Of a stretch of 64,000 nucleotides of DNA, positions 17,469 to 29,497 are shown piece by piece (the stretch's first letter is position 1; each line of letters starts with the position of its first letter). The position numbers were made by a program, and so were the translations under genes. Origin of the DNA: Egicoccus halophilus (GTDB lineage: Bacteria; Actinomycetota; Nitriliruptoria; Nitriliruptorales; Nitriliruptoraceae). The stretch lies in NCBI RefSeq assembly GCF_004300825.1, contig NZ_CP036250.1, positions 2,412,001 through 2,476,000 on the forward strand, given 5' to 3'. Under the pieces are notes generated by a model. The model ran no database searches, was not told the origin of the DNA, and saw only the letters and a list, made by a program, of their open reading frames with translations.

Positions 17469-18103
17469 CGCAACACCTCCGGCAACCCGTCGGCGTAGCG
17501 CTCCGTGCGACTGGAGGGCCGGACGTCGACGTCGACGACGAAGCTCGCGTTGCCGTGCTCGTCCAGCGTCGAGGAGGACACGTAGGGGTCGGCCAGCGTG
17601 ACCAGGCTGGCGTAGTCCAGCAGCAGGCGTTCGACGCCCGGCGCGTGTCCGGCGGTGTTGGCCCCGGTGAGGGTGACCGTGCCAACGACATCCGGCGGCA
17701 CACCGTCGACGGCCGGCGCCGCCCCGAGCGGCGGTTGCAGCCGGATGTCGATCGTCTCGAGTCCGGTCTCGGTGGCGGTGACCAGCGCGAGGTCCTGCAA
17801 CAACCCGGCGACCGAGACCTCGTCGGCCAGCGCCGCGCGGACCTGCTCCTCGGCCGCCATCGCCTGCGCCGCGAGCTCGGCGTACGGGGTGAGCTCGGCC
17901 CGTGCCCCCTCGAGCGCGAGCACCTCGTGCTGCGCCGCGGCGAGCTCGGCCTCGGCCCCTCGCAGGGTCGCGTGCTGCACGGCGTGGACGATGCCGAGTG
18001 CCGCGACGACCGCCCCCAGCGCGACGACGACCACGGCGCGCTGCCGGCTGGCACGACGATGTGCGACGTTCGCCACCGGCAGCAGGTTGACCCGCACGCT
18101 CAT
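17465..18103 (-). CDS. pilN: Type IV pilus assembly protein PilN
   Basis: 212 aa. The N-terminus contains the PilM-binding motif (S-V-R-V-N-L-L-P), then a transmembrane helix (residues about 24-42), a coiled coil and a ferredoxin-like domain with WLS-type feature replaced by GTVTLTGANTAGHAPGVER. Start ATG at 18103 overlaps the pilM stop (ATGA). Operon position between pilM and pilO supports the call. Confidence 0.85.
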   Translation of the reverse strand: MSVRVNLLPVANVAHRRASRQRAVVVVALGAVVAALGIVHAVQHATLRGAEAELAAAQHEVLALEGARAELTPYAELAAQAMAAEEQVRAALADEVSVAGLLQDLALVTATETGLETIDIRLQPPLGAAPAVDGVPPDVVGTVTLTGANTAGHAPGVERLLLDYASLVTLADPYVSSSTLDEHGNASFVVDVDVRPSSRTERYADGLPEVLR

Positions 18104-19137
18104 TCGCGTCCCGCTAGGGCGAGGCCGACGGCCGTGGTCAGGGTCGGGCCGACGGTGCGCAGCGCCGGCGCGTCGTAAGCGGCCACCTTGGCACCCCAGT
18201 GGTCGAACACGCTGCCGAGCTCCACCGGAAGGCGCAGCGACTCCGCCAGCTGGTCCGACAGCCCGGGGAGGTTGGCGCCGCCGCCGGTGAGCGCGACACC
18301 GGCGAGGGGCGCGGCACCCGGCTGGGCGAGGTAGTAGTCGATCGAGCTGCGGATCTCCTCCGAGAGCCGCTCCACGTGACGCGCGACCAACGCCGCGAGA
18401 CGCCCGTCGGCCGTCGGGTCCGACGTGCGCTTGAGGCGTTCGGCCTCCGTGTGGTCGATGCCGAGCTCCATGGCGATCGCGTCGGTCACCTCGTCGCCGC
18501 CCGACGTCAGGATGCGAACGAACAACGGGGTGCCGCCGTGTTGCACCACGACGTCGGTGACGCCGCCGCCGACGTCGACGAGCACCTCGCCGGCCTGTTG
18601 GTACGGCGAGTGGTTCCCGATGGCGCGCAGCATCGCGAACGGGTTGAGGTCGACGCCGACGGCGCGCAGACCGGCGCGCTGGACGGCCTCGACGTGACGG
18701 TTCACCATGTCCCGGTGCGCGGCGGCGATGAGGACCCGCTGGCGTCGTTCGCCGTCTTCGGTGACCTCCTCGGCCAGCACGTGCACGTCGAGTTCGGCGT
18801 GTTCGACCGGGATGGGAATGTGTTCCTGCACCTGGTAGCGGATCGAGGCGCGCAGGTCCTCGAGCGGCATGGCCGGCAGGTCGAGCTGGCGGACGACGAC
18901 ACGGGAGTTCGCCACGCCGAGCCACACCTTCCTGGTGCGGACCTTCGTGGCGGCGACGAGGTCGCGCAGGGCGTTGGCCACCGCATCGGGTTCGTGGACC
19001 TCACCGTCGACGACCCAACCCGGCGACAGCTCGATGCCGCCGAAGTTCGTGATGCGGGGGCCCGACCGGGAGGACGCGACCTCCGCGACCGTGACGGTGC
19101 GGGTGCCGATGTCCACCCCCACAGCGGTGGTTGCCAC
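18100..19137 (-). CDS. pilM: Type IV pilus assembly ATPase-like protein PilM
   Basis: 345-aa actin-like (FtsA/ASKHA fold) cytoplasmic protein. GVDIGTRTVTVAEV is the phosphate-1 loop, VLVDVGGGVTDVVV the phosphate-2 loop and VALTGGGANLPGL the adenosine loop. Start GTG at 19137. It binds the PilN N-terminus, and pilN overlaps it by four bases. A small hairpin lies 20 nt upstream of the start. Confidence 0.92.
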   Translation of the reverse strand: MATTAVGVDIGTRTVTVAEVASSRSGPRITNFGGIELSPGWVVDGEVHEPDAVANALRDLVAATKVRTRKVWLGVANSRVVVRQLDLPAMPLEDLRASIRYQVQEHIPIPVEHAELDVHVLAEEVTEDGERRQRVLIAAAHRDMVNRHVEAVQRAGLRAVGVDLNPFAMLRAIGNHSPYQQAGEVLVDVGGGVTDVVVQHGGTPLFVRILTSGGDEVTDAIAMELGIDHTEAERLKRTSDPTADGRLAALVARHVERLSEEIRSSIDYYLAQPGAAPLAGVALTGGGANLPGLSDQLAESLRLPVELGSVFDHWGAKVAAYDAPALRTVGPTLTTAVGLALAGRE

Positions 19138-19270: not shown

Positions 19271-20074
19271 TCACACGCCGAGCACGGTACGGACCGCGGT
19301 CGCGCTCGCGTCGGGGGCCAGCACCACCACCAGCGACCCGGCGGCGAGGTAGGGCCCGAAGGGCACCCGGCTGGCCAGGCGTGCCCGCCCCGACACCAGC
19401 AGGCCGACGACCACCACGACGGCGGCGCCGATCGTGGCGTAGGCGAAGGCCACCAGGTGGACGCCTCCGAGGTTGCCGACGACCAGGCCGATGGAGACGG
19501 CGAGCTTCACGTCCCCCATGCCCATGCCGGCCTGGCCACGGACCAGTCGGAACAGCTCCGCGAAGGTGAACATCACCGCCGGGACCACGAGCGCCCAGAT
19601 CACGCCCCCGCGCAAGGCGGCCCAGTCACCGTCGAGCGCCGCGGCGAGCACCACCAACGGGAGCAGCACGAACGGCAGACGGTAGGTGAGACGGTTGGGG
19701 ATGATGCGGTGCTCGAGGTCGATCGCGGTCGCCACCACGAGCGCCCAGACGAACACCAGCAGCGCGGGCAGCAAAGGGTGCCAGCCCCAGACCCACGTGA
19801 CGGCGGCGAACAGCAGCGCGGTGGTGAGCTCCACCACGGCGTAGCGCGGCGAGATCCCCGCGCCGCAGGCGCGGCAGCGTCCGCGCAGCAGCAGGAAGGA
19901 CAGCACCGGGACGTTGTCCCGCGGCGCGACCATCGCCCCGCAGGTTGGACACGCCGAGCGCTTCGGCTCGGTCACCGCCGCACCGCGCGGCCACCGGTGG
20001 ATCGCGACGGTCGCGAACGACCCGAGGGCCAGCCCGAGCAGGCCGGCCAGCCCCACCACCACGACGGCTTCCAC
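19271..20074 (-). CDS. pilD: Prepilin peptidase / N-methyltransferase (A24 family)
   Basis: 267-aa polytopic membrane aspartic protease that cleaves prepilin leaders at the cytoplasmic face and methylates the new N-terminus. Both zinc Cys pairs of the methylase domain are present (CPTCG and CRACG, about residues 38-70). The catalytic aspartates are in DLEHRIIPN and GMGDVK. About seven to eight hydrophobic helices. GTG at 20074 chosen for AGGAG 5 nt upstream. It can serve all the prepilins of this locus. A strong terminator separates it from pilA. Confidence 0.93.
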   Translation of the reverse strand: MEAVVVVGLAGLLGLALGSFATVAIHRWPRGAAVTEPKRSACPTCGAMVAPRDNVPVLSFLLLRGRCRACGAGISPRYAVVELTTALLFAAVTWVWGWHPLLPALLVFVWALVVATAIDLEHRIIPNRLTYRLPFVLLPLVVLAAALDGDWAALRGGVIWALVVPAVMFTFAELFRLVRGQAGMGMGDVKLAVSIGLVVGNLGGVHLVAFAYATIGAAVVVVVGLLVSGRARLASRVPFGPYLAAGSLVVVLAPDASATAVRTVLGV

Positions 20075-20111
20075 GGCGTCTCCTGCACGTCGGACGTGGA
20101 CCCTACTTCGT

Positions 20112-20146
20112 ACGACGTGGGGCGGCCCGAGGCCGCCCCACGTCGT
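20112..20146 (-). terminator. Strong terminator after pilA
   Basis: ACGACGTGGGGCGGC at 20112-20126 pairs perfectly with GCCGCCCCACGTCGT at 20132-20146 (15 bp, 5-nt loop CCGAG). It starts 15 bp past the pilA stop and is followed by no clear U-tract, common in GC-rich actinobacteria. It would isolate the highly expressed pilin mRNA from pilD. Confidence 0.85.
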
Positions 20147-20160
20147 GTCGAGAGAGCCGG

Positions 20161-20610
20161 CTACGGCGTGGCTGTGGTACATGCCTCATTGCCGAAGTCG
20201 CCGAGACGGCCCTGGTTCTCACCGTCGTAGACGTAGCTCAGGCAGTTGGTGCCGCCGTTGATGCGGGTGTGGGTGCCGTTGAGCCGGAACCCGATGGCCG
20301 CACCGGCGGTGTTGGGGACCGGGGCGTAGTCGAGGGTCATCAGCACGCCGTTCTCGAACGGCGTGACGAGCGCGTTGCCGTCGGTGGTGGTCGGGTAGTT
20401 GCCGTTCTGGGCGGTCGCGGCGGCGTCGACCTCGAGGGCGGCGTTGCGGACCGCGGAGGTCAGCTCGGCCTGCCAGCCGCGCTCGCGCTGTGACAGGAAG
20501 CTCGGGATGGCGATGGCGGCGAGGATGCCGATGATGATGACGACGACGAGGAGCTCGATGAGGGTGAAGCCCTCCTCCTCACGTGCGGTGTGCAGCTTCA
20601 GCGGGGACAT
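20161..20610 (-). CDS. pilA: Type IV major pilin
   Basis: 149-aa prepilin. Leader MSPLKLHTAREEEG is cleaved before FTLIELLVVVIIIGILAAIA, with Glu at +5. The globular part is rich in Asn and Thr and ends with a Cys pair (C123 in GGTNC and C144 in NEAC) that would close a D-loop. ATG at 20610 chosen: AGGG lies 5 nt upstream and a longer reading adds no useful leader. It stands alone between two strong terminators with its own leader, as expected for a major pilin expressed far above its assembly machinery. Confidence 0.92.
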   Translation of the reverse strand: MSPLKLHTAREEEGFTLIELLVVVIIIGILAAIAIPSFLSQRERGWQAELTSAVRNAALEVDAAATAQNGNYPTTTDGNALVTPFENGVLMTLDYAPVPNTAGAAIGFRLNGTHTRINGGTNCLSYVYDGENQGRLGDFGNEACTTATP

Positions 20611-20888
20611 GGGAACCCTGTTCTCCGGAGATGTCGGACGTGGACCTGTGCGACGCGCCGTGCGTGGTGTCACCTGCACAGGTCCCCATCGAGGGATGGA
20701 GAGTCCCCTGCGCGAGGTAGTCCGGCTGACCGTCCCGGCACGCGGCCGGGGTGAGGTCCCGTGACGTTGCTTGCCCGCCTTACGACGGGGTCGCCCTTCT
20801 CACGCGCTCACGGTTCGTCAACCGTTTCCGTCGGCGCGTGGGTCGCGAACTTGAGGGGCGGGATCCGCGACGTCGCAACAACGCACGA
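20611..20888 (-). promoter_or_regulatory. pilA leader and promoter region with inverted repeats
   Basis: Non-coding stretch between pilA and the pilC terminator. GGACCTGTGC at 20642-20651 and GCACAGGTCC at 20676-20685 form a perfect 10-bp inverted repeat with 24 nt between the arms, 32 nt upstream of the pilA ATG. ACGGTT-CGTC-AACCGT at 20810-20825 is a second dyad that contains TTGACG on the minus strand, a possible -35. I could not fix a convincing -10. No gene is seen. Confidence 0.45.
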
Positions 20889-20942: not shown

Positions 20943-22187
20943 TCAGTGGATCGCGTCGAAGATGCTGAACATCGGCATGTACAGCGCGATGACCATGCCG
21001 CCCACGATGGCCCCGATCACGCCGATCATGAGCGGCTCCATCATCGCCGTCAGCGACTGCGTGGTCGACTCGACCTCGGTGTCGTAGAAGTCGGCGATCT
21101 TGCCGAGCATGCCGTCGATGTTGCCGGTCTCCTCCCCCACCGCGATCATCTGCACCACCATCGCCGGGAAGACGGCGTGCTGCGCCAGTGGCCGGTTCAT
21201 CGACTCGCCCTGGCGCACGGAGTCGCGCACGTCCCCCAGCGCCTGCGCGATCGGGCCGCTGTTGACGGTCTCGGCGGTGATCTCGAGCGCCTGAAGGATC
21301 GGGACACCCGCCGCGAGCAGCGTCGACAGGTTGCGGGCCAACCGGGTCAGGGCGATCTTGTGGAACAGCGGTCCGAAGACCGGCAGCCGGAGCTTGAGCC
21401 GGTCCAGCGCGAAGCGTCCCTTCGGCTTGGCCGCGATCGACCGGTAGGCGAACCACAGCCCGACCGGCGTGCCGAGCCACACGAGCAGCCCGAGCGGTGA
21501 GGTGACGAACTGCGACAGCGACTGCAGCATCCGCGTCGGGGTGGGTAGTTGCGAACCGAGCGTGTCGAACATGCCCGCGAAGGTCGGCACGATGAAGATC
21601 AGCATCGCGCTCGAGAGCACGATGGCCATGACCAGCACGATCACCGGATAGGTCATCGCCGACTTGATCTTCGCGCGCAGCGTCACGTCGGCCTCGAGCA
21701 TGGCCGCGACCCGCAGCAGCACCTCGTCGAGCATGCCGGCGGCCTCGCCCGCCCGGACCATGGCGACGTAGAGCGCGGGGAAGACCTTCGGGTACTCCGC
21801 CAGGGCCGCGGACAGCGACGTGCCGGTCTCGACCGACTGACGGATGCCGTCGATCGTCGTCGCGAGCGTGCGGTTCTCGGTCTGCTCGTGCAGGATCGAC
21901 AGGGCACGGATCAGGCTCAAGCCCGAGTTGATCATCGTGGCGAACTGCCGCGAGAAGACCGCCAGGTCCTTCAGCTTGACCCGGTCCGACAGACCGGGGA
22001 TCCGGAGCTCCTGTTGCAGGCCACGCTCGTTGACCTGGGCGATGGAGACCGGTGCGTAGCCCATGGAGGTGAGCTTCGTGGCGACCGCGGCCTGCGAGTC
22101 ACCCTCCAGCTGACCCGTGATGAGCCTGCCGGCCCGATCGCGGACCTTGTAGTCGAAGCGGTGCAGCACGGAGCTGGCCATCGTCAT
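20943..22187 (-). CDS. pilC: Type IV pilus inner-membrane platform protein PilC
   Basis: 414 aa. Two T2SSF domains (about residues 75-198 and 278-400) with hydrophobic helices near 175-195, 225-245 and 380-400. Signatures include FSRQFATMINSGLSL and LLAAGVPILQALEI, and GEETGNIDGML near the second domain end. N-terminal region FDYKVRDRAGRLITGQLEGDS is typical of bacterial PilC. It recruits PilB and PilT at the membrane. Nine bp separate it from pilT upstream. Confidence 0.95.
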   Translation of the reverse strand: MTMASSVLHRFDYKVRDRAGRLITGQLEGDSQAAVATKLTSMGYAPVSIAQVNERGLQQELRIPGLSDRVKLKDLAVFSRQFATMINSGLSLIRALSILHEQTENRTLATTIDGIRQSVETGTSLSAALAEYPKVFPALYVAMVRAGEAAGMLDEVLLRVAAMLEADVTLRAKIKSAMTYPVIVLVMAIVLSSAMLIFIVPTFAGMFDTLGSQLPTPTRMLQSLSQFVTSPLGLLVWLGTPVGLWFAYRSIAAKPKGRFALDRLKLRLPVFGPLFHKIALTRLARNLSTLLAAGVPILQALEITAETVNSGPIAQALGDVRDSVRQGESMNRPLAQHAVFPAMVVQMIAVGEETGNIDGMLGKIADFYDTEVESTTQSLTAMMEPLMIGVIGAIVGGMVIALYMPMFSIFDAIH

Positions 22188-22196
22188 CCTCCCCTC

Positions 22197-23819
22197 TCAG
22201 GCCCGGCCGGCCAGGCGTTGGAACTCGGCCACGTTGTTCGCCTTCTCCAGCGCCGTGTCGTAGGTCACCAGCCCCCGCTTCACCAGGGAGGCGAGTGACT
22301 GGTCCATGGCGACCATGCCGTGCTGCGCGCCGGCCTGGATGGCGCTGTAGAGCTGGTGGGTCTTGCCCTCGCGGATGAGGTTCTTGACCGCGGACGTGGC
22401 GGTCATGATCTCGACCGCGACCGCCCGTCCCTCCCCGTCGGCCGTCTTGAGCAGCGTCTGACAGACCACGCCCTGCAGGGCCCCCGCGAGCATCACCCGG
22501 ATCTGTTCCTGCTGGTGGGGAGGGAAGACGTCGATGATGCGGTCGACGGACTGCGGCGCGTCCTGCGTGTGGAGAGTGCCGAACACCAGGTGGCCGGTCT
22601 CCGCTGCGGTGAGGGCGACTTGGATCGTGTCGAGGTCACGCATCTCCCCCACGAGGATGACGTCGGGATCCTGGCGCAGCACGTGCTTGAGCGCCTGCTG
22701 GAAGCCGTGGGTGTCGCTGCCCACCTCGCGCTGGTTGACCACCGAACGCTTGTGGCTGTGAAGGAACTCGATCGGGTCCTCGACGGTCATGATGTGGGCC
22801 GGCCGGTTGCGGTTGATCAGGTCGATGACGGCGGCCAGCGTCGTCGATTTCCCCGAGCCCGTCGGCCCGGTGACCAGCACGAACCCGCGCGGCAGGTACG
22901 CGAAGTTGGCCACCTGCTCGGGGACACCGAGGTCCTCGAGCACCTTGATCTCGAAGGGGATGACCCTCATGACCGAGCCCAGCGCGTTTCGCTGCTGGAA
23001 GACGTTGACGCGGAAGCGGGCCCGTCCGGAAATCGCGTACGACAGATCCAGCTCGAGTTCGTTCTCGAACTGCTCACGTTGCTTCTGCGTCATGATTCCG
23101 TAGAGCAGGTTCTGCAGGTCGTCCGGGTCGCAGGGGGCGAACTCGTCGAGCGACACCAGGTCGCCGTGGACGCGGATCGTCGGGGGGATGCCGGCGGTGA
23201 GATGCAGGTCGGAGCCACCCCGCTCGACCAGCGCGACGAGCAGGTCGTCGAGTTCGAACGCGGCGCGCTGCTCGAAGGGCAGCAGGGTGTCGCGCCCGTC
23301 CGGGACGGCCGCCGGCGGGGGCGTCGCCGGTGTCGGCAGAACGGCCGCGGGGCTCGCCTCCGACGACGGTCGGTGTTCGTCGTGTCGGGCCGGGGACGAC
23401 CCGGTGTACGCGGCGATCGCGACCTGCAGCTCGCGGCGTGACGCGAGCGCGAACGTGACCGGGACCGCGAGGGCGTCCTGCACCCGTGCGCGCAGCGTCA
23501 CGTCCTTCGGGTCGGCGACCGCGACCACCACCCGGTCGTCCGGGCCGATGCCGATGGGGAGCGCGCCGAGTTCGGCGGCCAGCGGACCCGGCAGCAGGGC
23601 TGCCACCTCTACGTCGACGCTGCTGCTGTCGACGTCGACGTAGGACATCCCGAGCGTCAGGGCCAAGGCGCGCACCAGCGTGCGTTCGTCGGCCAGACGG
23701 TGCTCCATCAGCACCTTGGGCAAGCTGCCGCCGCCAGTTGCGGCCAGCTGCTCGGCCCACCGGACCTGTTCCGGGCGCAGCGTCCCCTGCTGCACCAGTG
23801 CGTCGCCCAGTGCGCTCAC
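22197..23819 (-). CDS. pilT: Twitching-motility (retraction) ATPase PilT with PilB-type N-terminal domain
   Basis: 540-aa hexameric secretion ATPase. The C-terminal 350 residues are PilT: SDLHLTAGIPP, Walker A GPTGSGKST, HIMTVEDPIEF, QREVGSDTHGF, Walker B DVILVGEMRD with Asp box, GTLHTQDAPQSVDRI and AVKNLIREGK (the AIRNLIRE motif of retraction motors). Unusual for PilT (commonly 340-380 aa), about 190 N-terminal residues include a T2SSE_N/MshEN-like domain (ALGDALVQQGTLRPEQV). A Pro/Ala-rich linker joins them. GTG at 23819 chosen over TTG one codon earlier, because AGGAGG sits at better spacing. Confidence 0.92.
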   Translation of the reverse strand: MSALGDALVQQGTLRPEQVRWAEQLAATGGGSLPKVLMEHRLADERTLVRALALTLGMSYVDVDSSSVDVEVAALLPGPLAAELGALPIGIGPDDRVVVAVADPKDVTLRARVQDALAVPVTFALASRRELQVAIAAYTGSSPARHDEHRPSSEASPAAVLPTPATPPPAAVPDGRDTLLPFEQRAAFELDDLLVALVERGGSDLHLTAGIPPTIRVHGDLVSLDEFAPCDPDDLQNLLYGIMTQKQREQFENELELDLSYAISGRARFRVNVFQQRNALGSVMRVIPFEIKVLEDLGVPEQVANFAYLPRGFVLVTGPTGSGKSTTLAAVIDLINRNRPAHIMTVEDPIEFLHSHKRSVVNQREVGSDTHGFQQALKHVLRQDPDVILVGEMRDLDTIQVALTAAETGHLVFGTLHTQDAPQSVDRIIDVFPPHQQEQIRVMLAGALQGVVCQTLLKTADGEGRAVAVEIMTATSAVKNLIREGKTHQLYSAIQAGAQHGMVAMDQSLASLVKRGLVTYDTALEKANNVAEFQRLAGRA

Positions 23820-23837
23820 CAACGTCCTCCTCGGTCG

Positions 23838-25505
23838 TCAAGCGACGACCCGTCCGATCTCCTCGAGGGTGGTCTGCCCGAGCAGCACCTTCGCCAGGCC
23901 GTCCTGCCGCAGTGTCTGCATGCCCTGGGCCACGGCGACACGCGAGATCTCCTCCGACGATGCCCGCGCCACCGCCAGCCGCTCGATGTCCTCGGTGACG
24001 GTCAGCACCTCGTGCAGCGCCAGGCGGCCGCGGTAACCGGTGCCGCTGCACGCCACGCAGCCCACCGCCCGGAGGAGTTCGGGGCGCGCGGCGACCACGT
24101 CGTCGTCGTAGCCGGCGGCGCGCAGCAGTTCGTCGGACGGGCGGAGGCGCTCGGCGCAGCGCGGGCAGACCCGGCGCGCCAGACGCTGCGCCAGCACGCA
24201 GTCCACGGCCGAGCCGACGAGAAACGGCTCGATGCCCATCTCGGTGAGACGGGTGATGGCCGACGGCGCGTCGTTGGTGTGCAGGGTCGACAGCACCAGG
24301 TGCCCGGTGAGGGCGGCCTCGATCCCGATCTGGGCGGTCTCACGGTCCCGCATCTCCCCGACGAGCACGATGTCGGGGTCCTGGCGCAGGATCGAGCGCA
24401 GCGCGGCGGCGAAGGTCAGACCGACCTTCGGGTTCACCTGCACCTGCGAGATTCCCGGCAGCCGGTACTCCACCGGGTCCTCGGTCGTGATGATGTTCAC
24501 ACCAGGCTCGTTGAGGACGTTGAGGGCGGCATAGAGCGTGGTCGACTTGCCCGACCCGGTCGGTCCGGTGACCAACAGCGTCCCGTACGGCTTGCGGTAG
24601 GCCTCCTCGAAGCGAGCGAGGTTGTGGTCGAGGAAGCCGAGGTCGCCGAGCTCGAGCAGCACGGAGGTCTTGTCGAGCACGCGCATGACCACCTTCTCCC
24701 CGTAGACGGTCGGCAGCGTCGAGAAGCGCAGGTCGATGGCGCGGTTGTTGGTGGTGACACCGATGCGGCCGTCCTGTGGGAGACGCCGCTCGGCGATGTC
24801 GACGTCGGCCATGATCTTGAGTCGGCTGACCAGCCCGGAGTGGATCGTCTTGGGCGAGCGGACCACCTCGTGCAGCACCCCGTCGATGCGATAGCGGACC
24901 CGCAGGTCGCGTTCTCCCGGCTCGATGTGGATGTCCGACGCCCCGTCGGCCACCGCCTGTGAGATGAGCAGGTTGACGAACTTGACGACCGGCGCCTCCT
25001 CGGTGACCGCTTGGATCGAGGCGAGGTCGTCGCCGGCGTCCTGGACGTCGGCGAGGTCGTCGGCCATCGCCTCGATGTCGTCGGTCAGGTGGGCGTGACG
25101 TTCGATCGCGGCGAGGATGTCCTCCCGTCGGGCGACCACGGGCTGCACGTCGTGCGCCGTGATGGTGTGCACGTCGTCGATCGCGACCACGTCGGAGGGG
25201 TCGCTCATCGCGACGAGCAGCTTGCCCTCGCGCAAGGCGAAGGGCAGCACGCAGTGCTTGCGCAGCGTGTTCATCGGAACCAGCAGCGCCAGCCGGGCGT
25301 CGATCTCGGCCTCGCCGAGGTCGACGACGTCGAGTCCGACCTGCACCGCGAGGGCCTCGAGCAGCTGCTGCTCGGTCAGCGACCCCCGCGCGACCAGTAT
25401 CCGACCGAGCGAATGGCCGGTGTGCTGCTGTTCCGCCACCGCCGCACGCAGCTGTGACTCGTCGAGCAGTCCGCGGCCGAGCAGGACCTGTGCCAGTGCC
25501 CTCAT
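23838..25505 (-). CDS. pilB: Type IV pilus extension ATPase PilB
   Basis: 555-aa motor that powers pilus assembly. Tandem MshEN-type 24-residue motifs start at residues 2 and about 33 (second: SLGRILVARGSLTEQQLLEAL). The catalytic part shows HIEPGERDLRVRYRIDG, Walker A GPTGSGKST, Walker B DIVLVGEMRD and LSTLHTNDAP. A zinc-binding tetracysteine (CPRC...CVAC) distinguishes it from PilT. ATG at 25505 chosen; a GTG at 25532 with AGGA upstream would add nine residues. Eighteen bp upstream of pilT; the DUF4388 gene ends 52 bp before it. Confidence 0.94.
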   Translation of the reverse strand: MRALAQVLLGRGLLDESQLRAAVAEQQHTGHSLGRILVARGSLTEQQLLEALAVQVGLDVVDLGEAEIDARLALLVPMNTLRKHCVLPFALREGKLLVAMSDPSDVVAIDDVHTITAHDVQPVVARREDILAAIERHAHLTDDIEAMADDLADVQDAGDDLASIQAVTEEAPVVKFVNLLISQAVADGASDIHIEPGERDLRVRYRIDGVLHEVVRSPKTIHSGLVSRLKIMADVDIAERRLPQDGRIGVTTNNRAIDLRFSTLPTVYGEKVVMRVLDKTSVLLELGDLGFLDHNLARFEEAYRKPYGTLLVTGPTGSGKSTTLYAALNVLNEPGVNIITTEDPVEYRLPGISQVQVNPKVGLTFAAALRSILRQDPDIVLVGEMRDRETAQIGIEAALTGHLVLSTLHTNDAPSAITRLTEMGIEPFLVGSAVDCVLAQRLARRVCPRCAERLRPSDELLRAAGYDDDVVAARPELLRAVGCVACSGTGYRGRLALHEVLTVTEDIERLAVARASSEEISRVAVAQGMQTLRQDGLAKVLLGQTTLEEIGRVVA

Positions 25506-25557
25506 CGCCCGACCGCCGCCGTGGGGCACCACGTCGGTCCTGCGGGGCGCCGCGGGG

Positions 25558-26445
25558 TCAAGACCCGCTCACCCCCAGCCGCGGGTCCGGCCCCGTTACC
25601 GGACACGGACCGATCCGGTACTGGTGGACGCGCGTGGGCAGCCGCCGGGGACCGGACGGCGGGAAGTGGAGCACCCCGACCCCGGCGATCTGCAAGACGT
25701 CGGACCCGTCCGGGTCGAACGGGTCGGCCTCGTGCGGTTCGGGGTCGAGCAGGACGGGGTCGAGCAGGTCGGCGTCGAGCAGGTCGGCGTCGAGCAGGTC
25801 GGCGTCGAGCAGGTCGGCGTCGAGCAGGTCGGCGACGAGCAGGTCGGCGACGACGGAGGTCGTTGGGACGTCGTACGCGACGTCCTCGGTGCTCGATGCG
25901 GTCGCCGCGGCCACACGGAGCAGACCCCGGTCGAGCAGGTCGGCCACGGCCTCGTGCGCTCGAAGCTGCCCACGTCCCCAGCGGTCGGCGAGTTGCGCGA
26001 TCGTCCGGGACCCGTCCACCTGGGCGAGCAGCCGCCACCGGTCGACGTCGACGACCACGTCGTCCTCACCGGTCGGGACCGCCAACGACAGCACGACGTC
26101 CGGTCCGCCGGTGCGAGTGATCAGCCCGGGCCACGTCGCCGCCCGTCGGCGAGCCGTGGGCCACAGATCCCCGTCGGACACGGCCGGGGTCGCGCAGGCG
26201 TCGGCCAAGAAACGGAACGCCCCGGCGGGACGGGTACAGAGCACGTCCAGCAGCACGTCGAGGGCGTCGCACGGTGCCGACCCACCGGCCCGCACGTGCG
26301 AGATCCGGCCGTCGAACAGGTCCACCTCGACGACCCAGTCGCTCAGTTCCAGGCACAGCAGGCCCGTCTTGCGGGAGCTGGTCAACAGCACCAGAATGTC
26401 CTCGAGTGCGAACTCGTCGAGTCGTCCTTCGAGCACGCCGCTCAC
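25558..26445 (-). CDS. DUF4388 (PATAN-like) domain protein
   Basis: 295 aa. Residues about 1-90 fit DUF4388: GVLEGRLDEFALEDILVLL, SRKTGLLCLEL, EVDLFDGRISHVRAG and RPAGAFRFL. The middle part (about 120-190) may be a second, winged-helix-like segment (RTIAQLADRWGRGQLRAHEAV). A run of ADLLD pentapeptides (residues about 200-240) follows, encoded by 15-bp repeats, and then a Pro-rich end. GTG start overlaps the Roadblock gene stop (GTGA). PATAN-domain regulators bind PilB in cyanobacteria (PixE), so a PilB-modulating role here is plausible but inferred. Confidence 0.7.
   Translation of the reverse strand: MSGVLEGRLDEFALEDILVLLTSSRKTGLLCLELSDWVVEVDLFDGRISHVRAGGSAPCDALDVLLDVLCTRPAGAFRFLADACATPAVSDGDLWPTARRRAATWPGLITRTGGPDVVLSLAVPTGEDDVVVDVDRWRLLAQVDGSRTIAQLADRWGRGQLRAHEAVADLLDRGLLRVAAATASSTEDVAYDVPTTSVVADLLVADLLDADLLDADLLDADLLDADLLDPVLLDPEPHEADPFDPDGSDVLQIAGVGVLHFPPSGPRRLPTRVHQYRIGPCPVTGPDPRLGVSGS
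25744..25855. repeat. 15-bp tandem repeat within the DUF4388 gene
   Basis: About seven units of GTCGAGCAGGTCGGC, degenerating at both ends (CAGGACGGG and GACGAGCAGGTC variants). In frame on the minus strand it encodes ADLLD repeats, an acidic amphipathic linker. The near identity of the central units suggests recent expansion or ongoing copy-number change. Confidence 0.85.
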
Positions 26446-27449
26446 CCCCGTCCCGGCGCGGCGACCTCGGGGCCGGCCCAGGCCGCGTCCTGGCGGTCAC
26501 CACCCGTGGCGCGACGAACCTCCACCAACGCCTCGGTCAGCAGGTCGCGCTCGTCGAGTGCAACCGCCTGGTCGGCCAGGATGGCCAGCAGCTCGGCCTC
26601 GTAGTCGTTCGCCGGCGGCAGCTCCTCACCGTCATGCGCGGCCGACCCGGGTGCCTCCGCCGGCTCCAGCGGGACGTCGAGGGATCCCACCGGCCCGGAC
26701 GGCGTGGCGAACGACGCCGGTGCGGGGACCGGCCCGGCGAGCGCGTGAGGTGCGAAGGGGGCCGGCGTGGCGAAGGGATCCGGGGTGGCGAAGGGATCCG
26801 GGGTGGCGAAGGAAACCGGGGTGGCGAAGGCGGTGACCTCATCCGCCGGCTCGACCTGCGGCGTGGTCGGGTGGCCCTCGGCGAACACACCCGGAACGAC
26901 GGCGACCGTCTCGGCCGGCTCGGACCCGCACGGCGCGGTCACCGGGACGTTGTCCCGCAGCGTCGTGTCCGCCACCGACGGGACCGGCGCGAGCAGCGCA
27001 CCGATGCGATCGGCGGCGACACGCAGGTCGGCGAGCAGCAGCCCGAGTTTCGCGGGCGCCGCCACGAGCGCGGCCAGCACGGCCCGGTCGTGAGCGTTGC
27101 GCACCAGCACGAAGCCCGCCTCACCCTCCACGACGACCTGCTCCAGGCGTCCGCGGGCGAAACCGGTCGATGCCTGCTGCGCGAGCCCGAGCATCGCGGC
27201 GCTCACGGCCGCGACGGCGCTCTCGTCGAGCTCGTCCGGCAGGGCGCTCGCGATCGGGACCCCGTCGAAGGACAACACGGCGGCCGCCTCGACGTCCTGC
27301 GAGCAGTACAGGAACTCGTCGAGAGCCTCGGCCAGCCGTGTGGCGCGGGTGTCGAGGTGCTCGGACACATCGGTCTCCGGGATCGCGGGCTCGAGATGGC
27401 GAGGCTCGGGATGCGAGCCCTCCGTCTCCTCCATCGGCCCGCGGGTCAC
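26442..27449 (-). CDS. Roadblock/LC7 domain protein
   Basis: 335 aa. A Roadblock/LC7 fold (about residues 38-150: RLAEALDEFLYCSQDVEAAAVLSFDG, AMLGLAQQAS, LEQVVVEGEAGFVLV) resembles MglB-type regulators of small GTPases. The C-terminal half is a low-complexity region with in-frame 18-bp repeats (near 26767-26832) encoding PFATPD, and it ends with a helix-forming stretch (NDYEAELLAILADQAVALDERDLLTEAL). Start GTG at 27449; an in-frame ATG at 27434 is possible. No small GTPase gene is visible in the window. Heads the regulator-pilB-pilT-pilC operon. Confidence 0.72.
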   Translation of the reverse strand: MTRGPMEETEGSHPEPRHLEPAIPETDVSEHLDTRATRLAEALDEFLYCSQDVEAAAVLSFDGVPIASALPDELDESAVAAVSAAMLGLAQQASTGFARGRLEQVVVEGEAGFVLVRNAHDRAVLAALVAAPAKLGLLLADLRVAADRIGALLAPVPSVADTTLRDNVPVTAPCGSEPAETVAVVPGVFAEGHPTTPQVEPADEVTAFATPVSFATPDPFATPDPFATPAPFAPHALAGPVPAPASFATPSGPVGSLDVPLEPAEAPGSAAHDGEELPPANDYEAELLAILADQAVALDERDLLTEALVEVRRATGGDRQDAAWAGPEVAAPGRG

Positions 27450-27473: not shown

Positions 27474-28373
27474 TCAGGTCTCGCCGAGCGCCGCGAGCGC
27501 CGCGGCGTGGAACACCCCGTGGGGAGCGGGCCGGTCCGTCCAGCGCTCGAAGGACACCGCCGCCTGCCCGACGAGCATGGCGAGCCCGTGGTGGGCGTCC
27601 GCGCCACGGTCGCGAGCGGCCTGCAGGAACGGCGTCGCCTCCCGACCGGCCGGGACGGCCACGCGTGGGTAGAGCAGGTCGTAGGCGATCTGCCCGTCAC
27701 CGAGCGCGCAGAACGGCGCCGGCAGCGACTCGCCGTGCAGTCCGAGCGGGGTGGCGTTGACCACGATCCTCGCGTTGGCCACGGCCGCTCGCACCATCGC
27801 CTCGTCGTCCAGCGCGACCGCCGCCGTCCGCACAGCACCGCCTCGCTCCCCTACCGCAGCGACCGACGCTGCGGCCGCGGGTCGGCGGCCGACCACCGTC
27901 AACGCCCCCGCCAGGCGAGCGACCGCCACCGCCGCCGCGCGGGCGGCGCCACCGGTCCCGAGGACGACCACCTCGTCGCCGGCCCGCGGCGCGACGTCAC
28001 GTCGCAGCGCCTCGAGAAGTCCCACCGCGTCGGTGTTGTCCCCCAGCAGGCCATCGGCGGTGAACACCAACGTGTTGACGGCGCCGATCGACTCGGCCTC
28101 TGGTGTCAACCGGTCGCACCGGGCCACCACCGCCTCCTTGTGCGGCACGGTGACGTTGGCTCCGACGCCACCGACCACCCCGAGGGTGTGGACGGCCGCT
28201 GCGAGCTCGTCGGGCGGGCACGGCCAGGCGAGGTAGACCAGGTCCAGGCCCTCGGCGCGGAACGCGGCGTTGTGCATCACCGGGGACAGCGAGTGGGCGA
28301 CCGGTCGACCCAGCAGCACGACCGGTCGCGTGGTCGCGCTCGGCCAGCCGCCCACGCCGGCCGCGACGCTCAC
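27474..28373 (-). CDS. aroE: Shikimate dehydrogenase
   Basis: NADP-dependent reduction of dehydroshikimate; 299 aa. Shikimate-binding GRPVAHSLSPVMHNAAF, catalytic Lys in GANVTVPHKEAV, GAVNTLV, DNTDAVG, the dinucleotide loop VVLGTGGAARA and NATPLGLHG are all present. GTG at 28373 chosen because it overlaps the mltG stop (GTGA) and gives the family N-terminus. Marks the left boundary of the pilus locus relative to aroC. Confidence 0.94.
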   Translation of the reverse strand: MSVAAGVGGWPSATTRPVVLLGRPVAHSLSPVMHNAAFRAEGLDLVYLAWPCPPDELAAAVHTLGVVGGVGANVTVPHKEAVVARCDRLTPEAESIGAVNTLVFTADGLLGDNTDAVGLLEALRRDVAPRAGDEVVVLGTGGAARAAAVAVARLAGALTVVGRRPAAAASVAAVGERGGAVRTAAVALDDEAMVRAAVANARIVVNATPLGLHGESLPAPFCALGDGQIAYDLLYPRVAVPAGREATPFLQAARDRGADAHHGLAMLVGQAAVSFERWTDRPAPHGVFHAAALAALGET

Positions 28374-29497
28374 TCCGACACGTCCTGTTGGCACCGTCCC
28401 GCCTCGCGGAAGGCGGCCACGTTGCGATTGTGCTCGTCGAGGGTCTCGGCGAACTCGTGGCTGCCGTCGCACTCCGGGGCCAGCACGTAGTAGCGGTAGG
28501 CGACGTCCTCGGGATCGAAGGCCGCCAGCAGCGACGCCCGCCCCATGCCCGAGATCGGGCCTGGCGGCAGCCCGTCCACGAGGTAGGTGTTGTACGGGTG
28601 CTCGACCTCGAGGTCCTCGAGCAGGACCACGTCCCGGGGCTCACCGACCGCGTAGATGACGCTGGCGTCGATCTGCAGGCGCATGCCTTCCTCGAGCCGG
28701 TTCTCGATCACCCCGGCGACCGTCTGGCGTTCCGCGTCGACCCGCGTCTCGCGCTCGACGAGGCTGGCCAGCGTGAGGACCTCGAAGCGGTCGAGCCCAC
28801 GTCGTTCGGCGTCGGCGCGCCGATCGGCTGGGACCTCCTCGACGACGATCGCCAACTGGTCGACCATGCGCTGGAGCACCTCGAGCGGGGTCGCGTCCTC
28901 GGCGACCTCGTAGGTCTCGGGGAACAGCAGGCCTTCGAAGGGTTCGACGATCTCCTCGGGCATCTCGGCCGGCTCGGGCACCCAGTCCGGCAGCACGAGC
29001 ACGCCCGGGTCGTTCGCCCCGGCCGCCACCCGCTCGTCGAGCACCTCCCGGAAGTCGTCCTCGTCGTGCGCGTCGAACTGTGCGTCCAGTCGCGCCAGGG
29101 TCTGTTCGACCGTCAGTCCCTCCTGCACCGTGAAGCGCAGGCCCGCGGGACCGCCGCGGACCGGCCCGGCGATCAGGGTGTCGATCGCCGCCTCCGAGCC
29201 CATACCGGTCTCGAGGTCGTAGGCCCCCGGTTGCAGCTGCGTGGCGAGGTCGGCGTCGCCGGCGGCGATCCGGAAGGTGGTGGGGTTGCGGATGACCCCG
29301 AGGTCGGCGAGCCGGTCACCGACGGCGCGTACGGACTCGCCCGACTCGACGGTGAGCTCGACCGGTCGCCCGGCCTCGATCCCGCCCTCACCCGGTTCGG
29401 GCAGCGCGTCGTTGAGCCAGGCCACCCCGACCCCGACGCCGACGGCCAGGACTCCGAGGAACCCCAGGAACCACTTCGAGCCCCGGCTCAACGCCAC
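28370..29497 (-). CDS. mltG: Endolytic murein transglycosylase MltG (YceG family)
   Basis: 375 aa. One N-terminal transmembrane helix (about residues 9-28), a LysM-like region (GESVRAVGDRLADLGVI) and the YceG catalytic domain with the active Glu in LASLVERET and the signatures LQIDASVIYA and YNTYLVDGLPPGPI. It cuts nascent glycan strands outside the membrane. GTG start. Between ruvX and aroE, the conserved actinobacterial order. Confidence 0.93.
   Translation of the reverse strand: MALSRGSKWFLGFLGVLAVGVGVGVAWLNDALPEPGEGGIEAGRPVELTVESGESVRAVGDRLADLGVIRNPTTFRIAAGDADLATQLQPGAYDLETGMGSEAAIDTLIAGPVRGGPAGLRFTVQEGLTVEQTLARLDAQFDAHDEDDFREVLDERVAAGANDPGVLVLPDWVPEPAEMPEEIVEPFEGLLFPETYEVAEDATPLEVLQRMVDQLAIVVEEVPADRRADAERRGLDRFEVLTLASLVERETRVDAERQTVAGVIENRLEEGMRLQIDASVIYAVGEPRDVVLLEDLEVEHPYNTYLVDGLPPGPISGMGRASLLAAFDPEDVAYRYYVLAPECDGSHEFAETLDEHNRNVAAFREAGRCQQDVSE

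Follow-up and report, generated by a model that had tools for sequence, protein, structure and literature searches.

The window, that is, the whole 64,000-nucleotide stretch of Egicoccus halophilus DNA that was analysed (genome G000), carries on its minus strand a run of genes in the order alaS, ruvX, mltG, aroE, Roadblock/LC7, PATAN/DUF4388, pilB, pilT, pilC, pilin-like, pilD and pilM (Table 1), among which alaS and ruvX are putative assignments from translations only. The type IVa pilus operon set is complete, with PilB, PilT, PilC, PilM, a prepilin peptidase and a pilin. As the original prediction held, a PATAN-like and a Roadblock/LC7 gene lie directly ahead of pilB; they are open reading frames with matches to PF14332 and PF03259, respectively, and their 4-bp start/stop overlap is likely to couple their translation. 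As the same gene order recurs across the class Nitriliruptoria and in other actinobacterial families, it is far from a chance arrangement. The pilB frame could be extended to 25532, and its probable start is the ATG at 25505, which is the site where, in relatives, the stop codon of a small GTPase gene overlaps the pilB start. We also observed an MshEN domain in the pilT-type ATPase (PF05157, residues 57-143), which is unusual for a retraction ATPase, and the N-terminal part of PilT is likewise matched in relatives. A second PilB/GspE-like ATPase, 43% identical, is encoded in the genome outside the window (G000:C1:939869-941500).

Table 1. Coordinates of the features discussed; positions are those of the window unless another locus is named
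Feature	Coordinates	Strand	Evidence
pilM	18100..19137	-	PF11104, 171.6 bits
pilD prepilin peptidase	19271..20182	-	PF06750, PF01478
pilin-like protein with N-methylation motif	20161..20679	-	PF07963
pilC	20943..22187	-	PF00482
pilT-type ATPase with N-terminal MshEN domain	22197..23822	-	TIGR01420, 486.9 bits; PF05157
pilB, extension ATPase with N-terminal MshEN domain	23838..25505	-	PF00437 (T2SSE family), PF05157; TIGR02538, 645.5 bits
putative deletion junction	25506..25608	-	PATAN tail unlike relatives after '...RVHQYRIG'; GTPase gene of congeners (about 0.6 kb) missing
PATAN/DUF4388 gene, 295 aa, GTG start	25558..26445	-	PF14332; alignment; AlphaFold2
15-bp tandem repeat, 9.9 copies, PATAN tail (DADLL repeats)	25714..25862	-	
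winged-helix-like domain, PATAN residues 94-180	25906..26166	-	search matches over residues 60-185; DSSP of model; VIA-align rows 110-181
start/stop overlap of Roadblock and PATAN genes, 4 bp	26442..26445	-	ORF coordinates and sequence
Roadblock/LC7 gene, 335 aa, GTG start	26442..27449	-	PF03259; alignment with relatives
18-bp tandem repeat, 4.4 copies, Roadblock linker (FATPDP repeats)	26752..26830	-	
aroE	27474..28472	-	PF08501; gene order in relatives; conserved upstream neighbour of module
GTPases lacking the switch-II Gln, Euzebya-like pil loci	L058:10117-10707, L064:10587-11177, L119:6551-7084, L120:5689-6246		

The PATAN and Roadblock proteins

The PATAN protein consists of a core (residues 1-93), a winged-helix-like region (residues 94-180) and a disordered tail. 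In its AlphaFold2 model, residues 1-180 mostly have pLDDT values over 90 and form a small core of mixed alpha/beta structure and, after it, the winged-helix-like region, which is the best conserved part of the protein in relatives. Its match to PF14332 (residues 6-60) is marginal but above threshold at 25.9 bits against a cut-off of 25, relatives scoring 72-123 bits, because it lacks an alpha-helical insertion in the core that most relatives possess; in the alignment this insertion is a gap in the window protein and in two congeners (G001 and G002) and is present in the third (G003) and in most others. A C-terminal motif, VDxxLLxRLIxGVxxL, which is conserved in PATAN proteins across the phylum, is also missing. 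As had been predicted, there is no receiver domain: neither the PATAN nor the Roadblock protein yielded a match to the CheY-like Response_reg family. Foldseek comparison of the model with the PDB gave no match at an E-value of 0.001 or better. The winged-helix part resembles, with a Z of about 9, a structure entry that we take to be Nprl2 of GATOR1, and we regarded this as a common arrangement. The idea that the helical insertion might be homologous to the N-terminus of the window PilB was set aside, as pairwise BLAST was not significant. In one relative the PATAN insertion (L062:9182-10321) matches NF053729, an MshE-related c-di-GMP motif model, at 42.4 bits against a cut-off of 38, and the same model is matched by the PilB N-terminus.

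The Roadblock protein is a clear member of its family (PF03259, 45.2 bits against a cut-off of 23). The domain (residues 41-127, about 27069-27329) is followed by a linker of low complexity, after which comes a conserved C-terminal segment, DLLTEALxEVRRATGGD, that is retained in the window protein. The term "MglB-type" used in the original prediction is loose here: among solved structures the Roadblock profile matched CvnB5, Rv3364c and other Robl_LC7 proteins, with MglC at an E-value of 0.28 and no MglB chain listed up to an E-value of 10. The fold model of the protein is of low confidence. The sequence has changed rapidly, with 27 of 77 otherwise invariant columns altered, as against 0-1 in congeners, and a terminal branch of 0.884, about nine times the 0.055-0.118 of the congeners; the corresponding PilB branch is 0.20 versus about 0.085 (about 2.4 times). 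Nevertheless, the Roadblock core still appears constrained, given an NG86 dN/dS against congeners of about 0.3-0.5, with that of PilB at about 0.25, values for which synonymous sites are possibly near saturation.

A small GTPase gene in relatives and its loss

In relatives, the PATAN gene and pilB are separated by a further gene, about 200 codons long, that codes for a Ras-like small GTPase. These GTPases match PF03029 at 57 bits (cut-off 27) and TIGR00231 at 43.6 bits (cut-off 42.5), and the family profile recovers the gene in each of the three congeners included (G001, G002 and G003) with E-values of about 1e-90. The absence of a GTPase that had been predicted for the locus extends to the genome: a search with the family profile across G000, a single contig of 3.98 Mb that is 97.5% complete, found no small GTPase of the pil-module family, the best match being part of a 1085-aa frame (E 2.7e-5). 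The same result answers the suggestion that an MglA-like GTPase be sought elsewhere, as PF03029 and family-profile searches returned just P-loop fragments and part of that frame. Since all three same-genus species carry the GTPase gene between PATAN and pilB, G000 is GTPase-minus by loss within the genus and is in a derived state. The congeners' GTPase genes end in a stop codon that shares bases with the initiation codon of pilB (ATGA or GTGA). An ATGA is still present where pilB begins in the window, and the window PATAN protein ceases to resemble those of relatives after '...RVHQYRIG', about 16 codons ahead of its stop codon. Together these fit a deletion with one end in the PATAN tail and the other in the last part of the GTPase gene.

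We then examined the module across sampled relatives. The order mltG-aroE-Roadblock-PATAN-small GTPase-pilB is found in all three congeners and in most of the Nitriliruptoria. In this class, PATAN and GTPase occur together with Roadblock in 17 sampled genomes (in one of which, G027, the Roadblock position lies beyond the contig start), Roadblock and PATAN alone in three (G000, G013 and G024), PATAN and GTPase without Roadblock in four (G042, G047, G048 and G055) and PATAN alone in six, while aroE directly adjoins pilB in two (G016 and G034). Beyond the class, 17 sampled loci offered sufficient context, and every one of them has the Roadblock-PATAN-GTPase triad in the neighbourhood of pil genes; three further loci are truncated by contig ends, and named MAG loci show the triad as well. 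In one Acidimicrobiia MAG (L088), Roadblock and PATAN are present and the space between PATAN and pilB holds no GTPase gene. Of the three genes, PATAN is the one kept most consistently, and the ancestral and common state of the module includes the GTPase. On the PilB tree, GTPase presence and Roadblock presence each require at least five changes, and G000 and G013 fall on separate branches, so that the GTPase was lost in the window genome independently of its loss in G013; the module has thus eroded independently in several lineages. The predicted association with pilB is conserved across relatives, as is the wider link to pil genes; co-occurrence is incomplete, as Roadblock is missing from several pil loci and aroE runs straight into pilB in two, which indicates that a genome can have pilus genes without the module. 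In some families (L139, L140, L142, L148 and L149), PATAN is preceded by two or three Roadblock genes in tandem. We rejected the PATAN tail motif as a simple dock for the switch, since four of the six PATAN-only loci retain it. An apparent Roadblock-PATAN fusion in G046 (L065:8647-10638, one 663-aa frame) was likewise set aside as proof of contact, as its arginine-rich linker may reflect a frameshift in a draft genome.

The GTPase sequences themselves point to a functional link with Roadblock. Every GTPase examined that is encoded beside a Roadblock gene keeps the switch-II sequence GTPGQ, and its Gln is lost in all four Euzebya-like genomes without Roadblock (GTPTRDRF twice, GTAGHPRL and GVSNAIAY), an association that comes from one clade and hence represents one event or a few. 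Such correlated loss is expected if Roadblock aids hydrolysis as MglB does for MglA, and supports Roadblock as a probable partner of the GTPase. In two other genomes without the GTPase, G013 and G024, Roadblock is well conserved, with 6-7 of the 77 columns altered, whereas in G038, which keeps the GTPase, it is also fast, with 23 altered. Loss of the GTPase alone is therefore insufficient to explain the Roadblock rate, and, given its conservation in G013 and G024, Roadblock must have some role without the GTPase.

Comparison with known systems and interpretation

The two precedents behind the original prediction are both documented. In Synechocystis, PATAN response regulators interact with PilB1 (PMC7690835, PMC12288463). 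In Myxococcus, a GTPase-Roadblock system controls PilB (PMC11580455): MglA brings PilB to the pole via other proteins, no direct contact between SgmX and PilB having been detected (PMC11580455), and the Roadblock protein MglB acts as a GAP with RomY (PMC11580455, PMC4316618). The Synechocystis proteins PixE, PixG and LsiR resemble the window protein in having a PATAN domain and a connection to the extension ATPase of the type IV pilus; in contrast to them, the window protein has no receiver, its PATAN domain precedes a winged-helix-like region and a tail that is disordered, and its gene lies in the pil operon. The MglA/MglB pair of Myxococcus and Thermus resembles the Roadblock and Ras-like small GTPase of the relatives in its link to the PilB motor, and the solved structures matched by the GTPase profile include Thermus MglA; however, the GTPase is missing in the window genome, the Roadblock protein does not appear close to MglB, and PATAN is a core part. 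Conservons (CvnA-D) likewise pair a Roadblock protein (CvnB5 and Rv3364c being the solved relatives) with a small GTPase, as seen in the relatives, but neither a kinase nor CvnC was seen at the locus, which has PATAN instead and is linked to pil genes. The window locus is not a conservon, with no such GTPase in the genome and aroE and pilB as neighbours. Where the same genomes also carry conservon-type copies at other sites, these score far lower than the pil-type proteins. Orphan actinobacterial MglB-like proteins without a GTPase, and PATAN genes near MglB/MglA genes (Makarova 2006, as cited there), were already noted in the survey by Wuichet and Sogaard-Andersen (2014; PMC4316618); the passages of it considered here set out neither a fixed Roadblock-PATAN-GTPase-pilB order nor a series of losses, and we found no description of this order in the literature searched.

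In light of these observations, we propose that the pair is probably the remnant of an ancestral Roadblock/PATAN/small GTPase switch in the type IV pilus operon of deep-branching Actinomycetota, now uncoupled and perhaps decaying. In the full module, by analogy with MglA/MglB, the most likely role of Roadblock is that of a co-regulator or GAP paired with the GTPase, and, drawing also on the PATAN-PilB1 interaction, the state of the GTPase would be relayed through PATAN to PilB; PATAN would thus be the PilB-facing effector, with Roadblock and GTPase forming a detachable switch. All of these protein contacts, and the effect on pili, are inferred. In E. halophilus, a deletion would have taken out the GTPase gene along with the end of PATAN, after which any action of PATAN on PilB would lack nucleotide control; Roadblock, presumably released from the GTPase, has evolved fast. 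That such a switch gated PilB in the pil operon and was dismantled stepwise, leaving working GTPase-free versions like that of the window, is a reading we advance only tentatively.

The original prediction instead saw a working stand-alone control of PilB by Roadblock and PATAN, in which neither receiver nor GTPase is needed. This design is at odds with the GTPase gene present in relatives, three of the same genus included, and with its place in the ancestral and common state; moreover, features that are conserved in other genomes have been lost from both proteins of the window genome. The pair does occur without the GTPase in two separate lineages (the window genome and G013/G024), and in G013 and G024 both proteins are well conserved, as expected of a self-sufficient pair, yet we consider this explanation unlikely. 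Somewhat unlikely, too, is that the pair retains little or no function after loss of the GTPase, with PilB and PilT alone running the pilus, perhaps via their MshEN (c-di-GMP type) domains. The missing helical insertion and tail motif of PATAN, the fast Roadblock change, the tandem repeats expanded in the tails of both proteins and the direct aroE-pilB junctions of G016 and G034 would all suit such decay, but both frames are intact with their 4-bp coupling, the Roadblock core has a dN/dS below 1, and its C-terminal segment is kept. It is also conceivable that the genes merely travel within a long co-transcribed operon, from alaS to pil, and act on a non-pilus target, as the housekeeping genes alaS, mltG and aroE lie just upstream in most genomes; however, in several families aroE has relocated and Roadblock, PATAN and GTPase still lie beside pilB/pilT/pilC, and cyanobacterial PATAN proteins bind PilB (PMC12288463), making this very unlikely.

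The proposed GTPase switch of the full module would extend the control of pili by GTPases to actinobacteria. The natural relatives without the GTPase, without Roadblock or without both make the chain from GTPase to PilB directly testable, and E. halophilus offers a natural GTPase-minus case.
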